A DNA stretch of 64,000 bases from Planctomycetota bacterium. GTDB taxonomy: Bacteria > Planctomycetota > SZUA-567. Below are positions 3,339-24,704 of this stretch, piece by piece. Where the stretch lies: contig JAGUZQ010000084.1 in the NCBI GenBank assembly GCA_020060765.1, positions 1 through 64,000 on the forward strand, given 5' to 3'. The translations under genes were made by a program, and so were the position numbers. The notes under the pieces were generated by a model that saw only the letters and a list, made by a program, of their open reading frames with translations, ran no database searches and was not told the origin of the DNA. Each line of letters opens with the position of its first letter. Position 1 is the first letter of the stretch.

Positions 3339-3398
3339 TCCGCAAGTTATGCTTCGCAAAGGCGACAAAATTCCTGTTTTGCAAATAAACTTACGCGC

Positions 3399-3476
3399 GT
3401 CATTCCCGCGAAGGCGGGAATCCAGGAGGTGTTGCGTGCGGTTTCCCCACTGGATTCCCGCCTGCGCGGGAATGAC
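3399..3476. repeat. Paired GTCATTCCCGC palindromes
   Basis: GTCATTCCCGCGAAGGCGGG at 3399, continuing AATCCAG, is mirrored by CTGGATTCCCGCCTGCGCGG ending GAATGAC at 3476. Each arm is itself a hairpin and the pair is inverted across a short spacer. Relatives lie at 6349-6572, 19093-19171, 34739-34764 and 47657-47682. This is the widespread ATTCCCGC...GCGGGAAT repeat class, resembling Neisseria dRS3 or REP elements. Confidence 0.85.
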
Positions 3477-5557: not shown

Positions 5558-5791
5558 TTAATCGCCTTTGCAAACAGATACTTAGCCTACTTAAGCATAA
5601 CCGATTCCGCCGTCAGTTGCAAATAAACTCTCGCGATGGCTTCTTAAAAATATTTTTACCTGCGCAAAAATCTCATTCTGTAGGCGTTTTATTGCATAGC
5701 AACTGTGGCTTTTTCCTACATCATGACGGATTTTTCCACATACAAGTTAGCAGCTCGCGCCTGGATGCCGGAGATAATAGCGATAATTCTT

Positions 5792-5820
5792 TTCACATCG
5801 GCGCATCTGTCAGTTAAAAT
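5792..5820 (+). promoter_or_regulatory. Sigma-70-type promoter of arfB
   Basis: TTCACA at 5792-5797 and TAAAAT at 5815-5820 are separated by 17 bases, five of six matches each to consensus. A transcript would start near 5827, about 20 bases before the arfB ATG. This is a visual match only. Confidence 0.5.
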
Positions 5821-5847
5821 GCAAGGGAGGTGCCAGGAAAGAAAGCT

Positions 5848-18986: not shown

Positions 18987-19092
18987 TTCGGCTCCAAGGG
19001 GACAAATTTAAACCGGCGAGGATATCCGCCAATCAGCACTACGTCAAGCATGTTTGCCTTGTTGGGTGGTTTAACAATTAAACTCACGAATC

Positions 19093-19171
19093 GTCATTCC
19101 CGCGCAGGCGGGAATCCAGTTGGGAAAACCGTATACAACACCTCCTGGATTCCCGCCTGCGCGGGAATGAC
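19093..19171. repeat. Paired GTCATTCCCGC palindromes
   Basis: GTCATTCCCGCGCAGGCGGG at 19093 is mirrored by an inverted copy ending GCGGGAATGAC at 19171, with TTGGGAAAACCGTATACAAC between. The arrangement and spacing equal the 3399-3476 copy. The surrounding 18987-19324 has no gene; it also holds the CCCCCTGTAAGGGGG repeat near 19250. Confidence 0.85.
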
Positions 19172-21033: not shown

Positions 21034-21061
21034 TTGACAACAGCAATTCATGGCGTATAAT
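21034..21061 (+). promoter_or_regulatory. Consensus sigma-70 promoter
   Basis: TTGACA (21034-21039) and TATAAT (21056-21061) are both perfect matches, with a 16-base spacer. Transcription would begin near 21068, inside the palindrome that follows, so a bound repressor would block it. It drives the 21174-24704 operon. Confidence 0.88.
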
Positions 21062-21081
21062 CCAACCAACTAGTTGGTTGG
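21062..21081. promoter_or_regulatory. 20-bp palindromic operator, TetR-like
   Basis: CCAACCAACTAGTTGGTTGG is a perfect 20-bp palindrome that starts directly after the -10 box and covers the expected start site. Its length and placement fit a TetR-family repressor, and a TetR gene ends the same operon (24096-24704). Autoregulation is inferred. Confidence 0.75.
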
Positions 21082-21173
21082 TTTTATGACTCGTTGCCTT
21101 TCGACATATATATTTACATTTAAATTATTTATATTAATAGACTTACATCTATTCTCCTGCCCGGAGCAAGCAA

Positions 21174-22214
21174 ATGACTGAAAATTATCCTGCTGAACTC
21201 CGCAGCGATGCGGAACTTGACGAAACGCTATCCCTCCCAACCAACCAGTTGGTTGGTTTCATGAAACGCATACCCGGCGACATCATGATTCTTGGCATCG
21301 CGGGCAAGATGGGAATCACTTTAGGTCTGGCGGCGCGGCGGGCGATTGATGCGGCGGGGGTGAAAAAAGAGGTGATCGGAGTCAGCCGTTTTTCCGATCC
21401 CGACTCGCGCACACTGCTGGAAGGTCATGGCATTAAAACACTTGCCTGTGATTTATTGGATCGGGCGTCAGTCGCGCAGCTGCCGCTTATACCGAATATT
21501 ATTTATATGGCAGGCCGTAAATTCGGCACTGACGGCAGCGAGGACTTGACCTGGATCATGAACACGGAAGTCCCGGCCAATGTCTGTAACCACTTTACTG
21601 GCACCAACATAGTGGCGTTTTCTACCGGCTGTGTTTACCCGTTGCTGCCGTTGGGTCAAATCGGTTGCACCGAAGAAAATTCGCCCGCGCCGGTCGGAGA
21701 ATACGCGCAATCCTGCCTGGGGCGGGAGCGGGTATTTCAATATTACAGCCGCGCGGGAAAGATAAAATCCCTGCTGTTCCGCCTGAATTACGCTATCGAT
21801 TTACGTTACGGCGTGCTGCACGACTTGGCGATGAAAATCATGAACGACGAAGCGGTTGATCTGGGCATGGGCTACTTCAACGCGATCTGGCAGGGCGACG
21901 CCAACGTGCAGGCTTTGCTCAGTCTGGAACATTGCGCATCGCCAGCGGCGATACTGAACATCACCGGGCCGGAAACGGTTTCGGTCAGATACGCCGCCGC
22001 AGAGCTGGCGCGGGTGATGGAAAAAGACGTCAGCTTTGTCGGCGAACCGGTCGACAAGTCCTATCTGAACAACGCGGCTCGGGCGGCGGCTTTGTTTGGC
22101 TATCCGCGCGTGTCGCTGTTGCAGATGATCAGGTGGACGGGGTTGTGGGTGAAAAACGGTCATCGCTCTTTGGGCAAGCCCACTCACTTCGAAGTCAATG
22201 ACGGCAAGTTCTGA
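21174..22214 (+). CDS. NAD-dependent epimerase/dehydratase family protein
   Basis: This 346-residue protein has an extended SDR Rossmann fold. The dinucleotide site is IMILGIAGKMGITLGLAARR (about 36-55), using the GxxGKMG variant seen in a PVC-enriched family that recurs beside DapA-like genes. Further motifs include NIIYMAGRKFG and VAFSTGCVYPL near the catalytic Ser/Tyr region (EYAQSC rather than YxxxK, so activity is uncertain). ATG 21174 follows GGAGCAAGCAA. The N-terminal 30 residues (ETLSLPTNQLVGFMKRIPGD) look conserved in the family, and their codons contain the second operator palindrome. It is the first gene of the TetR operon; a sugar-acid or sugar-lactone pathway is likely. Confidence 0.8.
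   Translation: MTENYPAELRSDAELDETLSLPTNQLVGFMKRIPGDIMILGIAGKMGITLGLAARRAIDAAGVKKEVIGVSRFSDPDSRTLLEGHGIKTLACDLLDRASVAQLPLIPNIIYMAGRKFGTDGSEDLTWIMNTEVPANVCNHFTGTNIVAFSTGCVYPLLPLGQIGCTEENSPAPVGEYAQSCLGRERVFQYYSRAGKIKSLLFRLNYAIDLRYGVLHDLAMKIMNDEAVDLGMGYFNAIWQGDANVQALLSLEHCASPAAILNITGPETVSVRYAAAELARVMEKDVSFVGEPVDKSYLNNAARAAALFGYPRVSLLQMIRWTGLWVKNGHRSLGKPTHFEVNDGKF
21237..21256. promoter_or_regulatory. Second operator palindrome inside the coding region
   Basis: CCAACCAACCAGTTGGTTGG differs from the promoter palindrome at one base (T to C) and lies 175 bases downstream, centre to centre. It encodes the residues PTNQLVG of the epimerase-like protein. The spacing would allow looping or cooperative repression by a dimeric regulator. 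Confidence 0.6.
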
Positions 22215-22216
22215 GT

Positions 22217-22426
22217 GGTGCGTGCCGCACGGGCATATTTCGCAAGCGTGTGCGTAGCATTAAACTTAATCGCGCTCCCTTCGTTCGGTGCGTGCCGCAC
22301 GGGCATATTTCGCAAGCGTGTGCGTAGCATTAAACTTAATCGCGCTCCCTTCGTTCGGTGCGTGCCGCACGGGCGTATTTCGCAAGCGTGTGCGTAGCAT
22401 TAAACTTAATCGCGCTCCCTTCGTTC
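22217..22426. repeat. Three tandem copies of a 70-bp unit
   Basis: Units start at 22217, 22287 and 22357 and are near-identical; copy 3 has one visible A-to-G change. Each contains the hairpin GTGCGTGCCGCAC, then TATTTCGCAAGCGTGTGCG, an AT-rich TAAACTTAAT, and CGCGCTCCCTTCGTTCG. Diverged single copies occur at about 6376 and 52199-52286. The array sits between the first two genes of the TetR operon, where it could affect mRNA stability or expression ratio. Confidence 0.92.
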
Positions 22427-22473
22427 GCGGGTTTATGGTACAGAAGGATTTTGGCAACAGAGAAAGGGCACTC

Positions 22474-23550: not shown

Positions 23551-24099
23551 ATGATTATGCCTATGCAACAGAAAATCTGCCTGAAGCGCCGCATTATCCG
23601 CACGACGATGTTGGTCGCGGTGCTCGGGTTTGGCGGGCTTTTGTTTCTGGCGTATTCCGACCCACAGGCAAGCAGATGGGTCTATATTTTCCAGGCGTAT
23701 TATTACCCCAAACACCGCAATGGGCTAATTCCGGTTCCTGATGAGTATACTGGGGAATGGCGGGAATGGTACCTAAATGGACGACCAAGATGTTGCTGCT
23801 CCATGCGTAATGGAAAAGGTCATGGCAAAGGCGTCAACTGGAACGAGGACGGAACCATCTGTTCGGAATACAATTGTTACGAGGGAAACGCTGACGGCTT
23901 ACTCAAATTTTGGGACTACAAGAATGGAATGCTCCACACAATAACCTATGATCGCAATATACCGTGTACGCCGGAGGGCTTGCGGACTGTTTACGATTAT
24001 CGAAAAGATACTATAGAGGAATATGTTCATTATCAAGGCAACATTGTCAGCACTAAAAAAACCATAATCGGTTTGCAGAATGAAAGGAACCTCCCGTGA
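23551..24099 (+). CDS. Membrane-anchored MORN-like repeat protein
   Basis: This 182-residue protein has one N-terminal helix (about 18-38), after which the chain would lie outside the inner membrane. Residues about 65-135 contain repeated GEWREWYLNGRP, GHGKGVNWNEDG and ADGLLKFWDYKNG motifs, similar to MORN_2/YwqK-type repeats. It starts directly after the stop of the aldolase gene and overlaps the TetR gene by GTGA, so it belongs to the operon. The role in the pathway is unclear. Alternative ATGs at 23557 and 23563 are possible. Confidence 0.65.
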   Translation: MIMPMQQKICLKRRIIRTTMLVAVLGFGGLLFLAYSDPQASRWVYIFQAYYYPKHRNGLIPVPDEYTGEWREWYLNGRPRCCCSMRNGKGHGKGVNWNEDGTICSEYNCYEGNADGLLKFWDYKNGMLHTITYDRNIPCTPEGLRTVYDYRKDTIEEYVHYQGNIVSTKKTIIGLQNERNLP

Positions 24100-24704
24100 T
24101 CGACCGGGCTTATCAGACGCAGCGGAAAATCCTGACGGCGGCGCGCAGGCACTTTGCCGAAAAAGGCCCCCAGGGTGCCCGCATCGACGCGGTGGCGGCG
24201 GAATCCGGCTGCAACAAGGAGCGCATCTACTCATATTTCAAAAACAAGCGCGGGCTGTTCGTGGCTGCGTTGCAGGATTGTTTCGCCGAAATTCTCGCAC
24301 TGGAACTGGAACTGGCGGCTTTGACGGAAAAGGAAATTCCAAAAATGACCGGCCTGATTTTCCGCGCGTACATGGATTTTCACCAGCGGACGCCGGAGTT
24401 CTGGCGGCTGCTGGCGTGGGCGAACCTGGACGGGGAGATTTACGCCGATGCGCTGGAGGGGATGCGGGACAAGACTTTTTCCCGCCTGCGCGAACTCTAT
24501 CAACAGGGACAGGCAGGCGGCGCGTTCCGCGCTGAGGTGTCGTTTGAAACCTATCTCTTCAGCCTCTCGGCGCTGAGTTTCTTCTATCACTCCAACCGGC
24601 ACAGCATGTCTAAAACGCTGGGGCTGAACCTGTCGGATGAGACCGTACGCGGCACCATGACGGCGGAGATCGTGGCGCTGCTGGGCGGGCGAAATCAGCC
24701 GTAA
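24096..24704 (+). CDS. TetR-family transcriptional regulator
   Basis: This 202-residue repressor has an N-terminal helix-turn-helix (about 10-55): ILTAARRHFAEKGPQGARID, then AVAAESGCNKERIYSYFKNK. The C-terminal helical domain would bind an effector and dimerise. The start is GTG 24096 with AAAGGAA upstream, overlapping the previous stop. It is the last gene of the 21174-24704 operon, and the two 20-bp palindromes near the operon start are its likely operators; the effector may be the operon's substrate. The 3' end overlaps the convergent gene by 10 bases. Confidence 0.9.
   Translation: MIDRAYQTQRKILTAARRHFAEKGPQGARIDAVAAESGCNKERIYSYFKNKRGLFVAALQDCFAEILALELELAALTEKEIPKMTGLIFRAYMDFHQRTPEFWRLLAWANLDGEIYADALEGMRDKTFSRLRELYQQGQAGGAFRAEVSFETYLFSLSALSFFYHSNRHSMSKTLGLNLSDETVRGTMTAEIVALLGGRNQP

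Follow-up and report, generated by a model that had tools for sequence, protein, structure and literature searches.

Why does a palindrome that overlaps a promoter recur, almost unchanged, inside the first gene downstream, and which protein would bind it? The question is raised by two 20-bp sequences in the window, by which we mean the whole 64-kb stretch of DNA analysed here (Table 1). Site 1, CCAACCAACTAGTTGGTTGG, starts directly after the TATAAT box and spans about -6 to +14. Site 2, CCAACCAACCAGTTGGTTGG, carries a single change, central T to C, its centre is exactly 175 bp away from that of site 1, and it is read in frame with the epimerase ORF as CCA ACC AAC CAG TTG GTT GG. The original prediction, which had placed a palindrome across a consensus promoter's start site, with a one-change copy 175 bases downstream in codons for PTNQLVG, was correct on both points and in all its positions. 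The two sites are the only matches with three or fewer mismatches in the window, and no such match appeared in 100 shuffles. Their right flanks are partly alike (TTTTATGA and TTTCATGA), and the TTTYATGA in them hinted that the leader palindrome might be a duplicated coding segment. We dropped this idea: about 1% of random pairs score as high, and across all 153 flank pairs the likeness is not significant.

Table 1. Features of the operon in the window and the remaining exact copies of the palindrome core in the source genome.
Feature	Position	Strand	Basis or placement
Sigma-70-type promoter: TTGACA (21034-21039), 16-bp spacer, TATAAT (21056-21061)	21034-21061	+	sequence read directly; consensus scan, 12/12 consensus bases
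Site 1, perfect 20-bp palindrome, very probable operator	21062-21081		sequence; parallel in G288
NAD-dependent epimerase/dehydratase-family enzyme, 346 aa, operon gene 1	21174-22214	+	PF01370, E 3.6e-7
Site 2, 20-bp palindrome with C-A centre, epimerase codons 22-28 (PTNQLVG)	21237-21256		sequence
Dihydrodipicolinate synthase/aldolase-family enzyme, 358 aa	22474-23550	+	PF00701, E 1.9e-10
182-aa ORF, operon gene 3	23551-24099	+	ORF list; Pfam search
TetR-family regulator, 202 aa, TetR_N + TetR_C_29, last operon gene	24096-24704	+	PF00440, E 7.7e-12; PF17938, E 3.1e-20
Core copy, fpg	codons 15-21		in gene
Core copy, 219-aa small uncharacterised gene without known family	codon 7		in gene
Core copy, GH5-like glycosidase gene			in gene
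Core copy, coaX			in gene
Core copy, yidC			in gene
Core copy, IclR-family regulator gene			across stop codon, which is supplied by the palindrome's TAG
Core copy, near rsmG			intergenic, 0.1 kb after the rsmG stop codon

The operon encodes two enzymes with recognisable relatives. Homologues of the epimerase are 42-58% identical to it, and they adjoin homologues of the aldolase (53-71% identity), the start of which was chosen by homology, its ORF being open already from 22288. The Pfam search assigned no family to the 182-aa ORF. The last gene product has both an N-terminal HTH and a TetR-type C-terminal domain, each scoring above its gathering score (45 bits for PF00440 and 73 bits for PF17938), and belongs to the TetR family. 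In the gap between the epimerase and aldolase genes (22215-22430) a 70-bp unit is repeated about three times in tandem; pieces of it also occur at L062 (about 5600-5830) and L065 (about 5370, 5600 and 9750), which makes it a dispersed repeat family. Another dispersed repeat, built around CGTCATTCCCGCG(A/C)AGGCGGGAATCCAGG, is found in the window at 3397-3470, 19085-19156 and 47655 and in most other stretches of the source genome that were fetched.

The operon's own TetR protein is the obvious candidate for the binder, and we compared its distribution with that of the palindrome in a sample of 392 genomes of the phylum, taking matches with E below 1e-30 as orthologues. Only three other genomes have one, G104 (43% identity), G045 (39%) and G288 (37%), and it is absent from all 15 sampled genomes of the source organism's family; a scan of genome contigs with the TetR protein found only distant TetR proteins, which match mainly in the DNA-binding domain. 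The recognition region, NKxRIYxY, is invariant in all four orthologous proteins. In each of the four genomes that carry the regulator, the 16-base core AACCAACNNGTTGGTT precedes an epimerase gene, lying 45-125 bp before the aligned start and deviating at 0-2 positions. Fourteen further epimerase loci served as comparison, one being a second paralogue in G104 and the rest coming from genomes without a TetR orthologue; their best upstream cores have 4-7 mismatches. Such a split of 4 and 14 loci has a chance probability of 1 in 3060 if the loci are treated as independent.

The individual relatives are informative. G288 has TetR and the epimerase-aldolase pair on different contigs, with an exact core beside each, and these are its only two exact cores. 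The one before the epimerase, TATATAACCAACTAGTTGGTT, follows directly on a -10-like TATATA and is placed just as site 1 is in the window. TetR of G288 adjoins a divergent Gfo/Idh-type oxidoreductase gene and, with the epimerase-aldolase pair elsewhere, the two core-bearing loci (L161 1388-1407, L193 1501-1516) would form a small regulon in trans. G104 keeps the epimerase-aldolase-TetR order of the window and has a one-mismatch core before that operon, which in its 5.7 Mb is the only match with at most one mismatch among the matches listed. G045 is a weaker case: its upstream core deviates at two positions, a degree of match that chance often produces in this AT-rich genome. A palindromic site at the promoter of the regulator's own or a neighbouring operon is therefore present in the window, G288 and G104. 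Together, the G288, G104 and G045 comparisons make it very probable that site 1 serves this TetR subfamily as its operator, and the phylogenetic footprint of four TetR-bearing genomes against 14 other loci supports the operon TetR as its likely binder, as had been proposed.

This part of the system resembles autoregulated TetR repressors. As in those, tetR sits in the operon proposed as its target and the palindrome adjoins the -10 box, a layout that recurs in the distant relative G288. The window's genome differs from them in having eight further exact or near-exact copies, mostly in genes; both the ligand and the binding are predictions here. We met no bacterial operator with these core strings in the open literature searched, and looking there for TetR operators within genes yielded nothing of use.

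The further copies became apparent when the core was searched in the entire source genome (4.78 Mb, 130 contigs). AACCAACNNGTTGGTT occurs there nine times exactly, never with one mismatch and 10 times with two, the last number being equal to that of the reversed-pattern control. Under a Markov model only about 0.003-0.004 exact copies are expected in 4.78 Mb and, as the shuffles gave no matches either, we reject a chance origin of the set. The 391 other genomes of the phylum contain four exact cores in total. Two are the G288 sites; the others, one in G020 close to the 3' end of a TetR gene unrelated to this one and one in G340 within an efflux-type gene, are probably due to chance. Regulons normally hold degenerate sites, and nine exact copies together with zero one-mismatch copies in one genome are unusual. 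Six of the nine lie in genes, one across a stop codon, one in an intergenic region and one at the promoter; the genes hit beyond the window are mostly housekeeping genes with no relation to the operon. Nor do they form a promoter-linked regulon: in a consensus scan a strong promoter immediately adjoins site 1 only, and at the other loci no usefully placed promoter scores above background. The flanks of the nine copies show a mild preference, GGTT(GG) being followed by TTTY in 5 of 18 cases and by GAG in 3 of 18.

Are the in-gene copies maintained as DNA or as protein? Taken as protein, PTNQLVG would be a conserved peptide and the palindrome its by-product, and the homologues of the epimerase do show PT..LV at the columns of site 2. 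However, the host proteins of the in-gene copies are mutually unrelated. A search of the source genome for PTN[Q/R]LV in any codons (arginine as CGR) returned only the palindromes themselves, each with the palindrome's codons. With local codon usage, the probability of the exact codons is about 1e-4 to 4e-4 per site for the six sites, which is low because CCA, TTG and GTT are minority codons. In addition, the fpg copy uses another reading frame (SNQLVGW), and neither the promoter copy nor the intergenic one is translated. Codon identity and rare-codon use thus rule out a conserved protein motif, to which we assign a negligible probability. At the central pyrimidine-purine step, copies that are read through in frame 0 have CA or CG, and TA occurs only in the promoter copy and in the copy whose TAG is the gene's stop codon; this freedom at the centre fits a dimeric binder.

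Alignments show how the sites are accommodated by their hosts. In Fpg and the epimerase the site replaces homologous residues without an insertion, and its LV(G) residues are common to the homologues in the same columns; judging from alignments with relatives, the CoaX, YidC and GH5-like copies fall in loops whose length varies. Site 2 is absent from the homologues of the epimerase. Those of the TetR-bearing relatives have no palindrome at this place, and their amino acids there differ as well (SEPWDNVIEMMKR, TKPTPQLVDFMKK, SRPTPALVAQLAR). The original prediction had proposed codon-level conservation of positions 21237-21256 in relatives as a check, and such conservation is not supported. Its more general idea, that site 2 is constrained both as protein and as DNA, holds in part: every PTN[Q/R]LV found in the source genome is written in the codons of the palindrome, but the constraint does not extend to the relatives. 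Site 2 is thus likely to be under this double constraint in the source lineage only.

What, then, accounts for site 2 and the copies elsewhere? One possibility is a local switch, in which site 2 strengthens repression of the operon by looping or as a roadblock and the other seven copies are unrelated to it. A pair of copies within a single transcription unit, 175 bp from each other and with one over the start site, would suit such a switch, and auxiliary in-gene operators occur for other repressors, e.g. lac O2. However, the spacing corresponds to about 16.7 helical turns, which is not a favourable looping phase and lends looping no support, and the relatives that share TetR and the promoter site have no in-gene site. 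Furthermore, seven exact-core copies are found elsewhere, several of them deep in unrelated genes, and they need the same explanation. Looping or a roadblock, which the original prediction had read from the in-gene operator, is therefore insufficient as a reason for the in-gene copy and for the set, although it may be an effect of site 2; as the whole explanation, we consider the local switch unlikely. A mobile or templated short palindromic repeat, with the operator as its source, would spread by itself and survive wherever the reading frame tolerates PTNQLVG. The copies are indeed near-identical and lineage-specific, and other dispersed repeats are common in the source genome. Nevertheless, Fpg and the epimerase lack the 20-21 bp insertion that a REP- or MITE-like element would require when they are compared with their homologues, which share the LV(G) columns. 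The copies have no common flanks beyond the mild TTTY preference, the one-mismatch relics expected of a repeat are missing, and there is no match in the 2.9 million viral contigs searched. This origin is disfavoured and appears very unlikely.

A third possibility is chromosome marking: some nine scattered sites would be bound by TetR, or by a dimeric protein of another kind, in a position-dependent role like that of SlmA or RefZ. Apart from the promoter copy, placement with respect to genes looks random (six in genes, one at a stop codon, one intergenic), and the sites of SlmA and Noc are likewise mostly intragenic (PMC5519180). RefZ belongs to the TetR family and uses five near-palindromic sites on each chromosome (PMC6657595). 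Its NCBIfam model matches the window TetR (36 bits) and that of G104 (64 bits) weakly but over the full length. These scores are, however, far under the equivalog cut-off of 180 bits, and RutR scores equally well; we therefore do not count the window TetR as a RefZ. RefZ also differs in that the positions of its sites (RBM) are conserved over the genus Bacillus, and the window TetR has no sporulation context. With SlmA and its sites (SBS) in Escherichia coli and Vibrio cholerae, the system would share a TetR-family binder (a prediction in our case) and short scattered palindromes that are mostly intragenic; in V. cholerae SlmA also regulates a sugar operon (PMC5519180). The SlmA sites differ in sequence, length and number (24-79 compared with nine here), and, unlike SlmA, the window TetR is missing from the 15 sampled genomes of the source organism's family. 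A likeness within the source genome itself is parS, the site of ParB, which is present there in 13 exact canonical copies and none with one mismatch, the same exactness without degenerate copies. The core copies are not parS, as their sequence is not of the TGTTTCACGTGAAACA type and canonical parS is present separately; moreover, parS is mostly intergenic here (11 of 13 outside any ORF of 100 aa or more), unlike the core copies. Four of the 13 parS lie within 0.6 kb near the end of one contig (G000 contig C106:82908-83460), the only contig with both parS and a core copy, and the rest are on nine other contigs. Finally, the orthologues of TetR look like plain local regulators with one or two promoter sites. 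We regard chromosome marking as a doubtful reading.

Hence, the explanation that we favour, with a probability of roughly 0.65, is an autogenous TetR operator together with a dispersed set of copies that includes site 2 and is found in this lineage only. Site 1 would serve an autogenous repressor as its operator: TetR, sitting on the start site as one dimer or as two, would block transcription of the epimerase, aldolase, 182-aa ORF and tetR. Its release would come from a ligand, probably a metabolite of the sugar-acid type on which the epimerase and aldolase act. Site 2 would be a second site for the same TetR, inside the epimerase gene, and one of eight additional near-perfect copies whose exactness is kept by selection at the DNA level. 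TetR bound there could act as an auxiliary block to elongation in the epimerase operon, although we would put the odds of a local regulatory effect slightly below even. That site 2 exists at all is more readily understood from its membership of the dispersed set than from a local switch. The same TetR probably binds all nine, but a different protein could bind the dispersed copies. If they have a function, they may serve as auxiliary operators, in titration of the repressor or in chromosome marking similar to that of SlmA and RefZ. Several points speak against this explanation: the source organism's family has no TetR orthologue among the genomes sampled, the lack of degenerate copies is unusual for a regulon, the G045 core could be a chance match, and the TetR-bearing relatives have promoter sites only, so that nothing in them predicts a dispersed set.

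In summary, the comparison of genomes gives good support to an operator and a regulator of an ordinary kind, with a recognition sequence that is new with respect to the open literature searched. The spread of exact copies into coding sequences in one lineage is unusual and unexplained. What is out of the ordinary is that perfect operator copies lie inside unrelated genes of one genome, whereas relatives with the same regulator have promoter sites only. It is conceivable, though in our view unlikely, that an operon regulator of the TetR family has turned into a chromosome-wide binder in one lineage, as an independently evolved positional system of the SlmA/RefZ type. Were this true, nine exact sites of 16-20 bp, most of them set in frame into unrelated genes such as fpg, coaX and yidC, would have been kept at the cost of rare codons and residue replacements, and such a system would have been caught beside relatives whose version of the protein has remained a simple repressor. 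If confirmed, the set would be a clean case of genes constrained simultaneously as protein and as binding site, and it would show how a local repressor can come to have sites all over the chromosome, a possible starting point for positional proteins of the TetR family, SlmA and RefZ among them.
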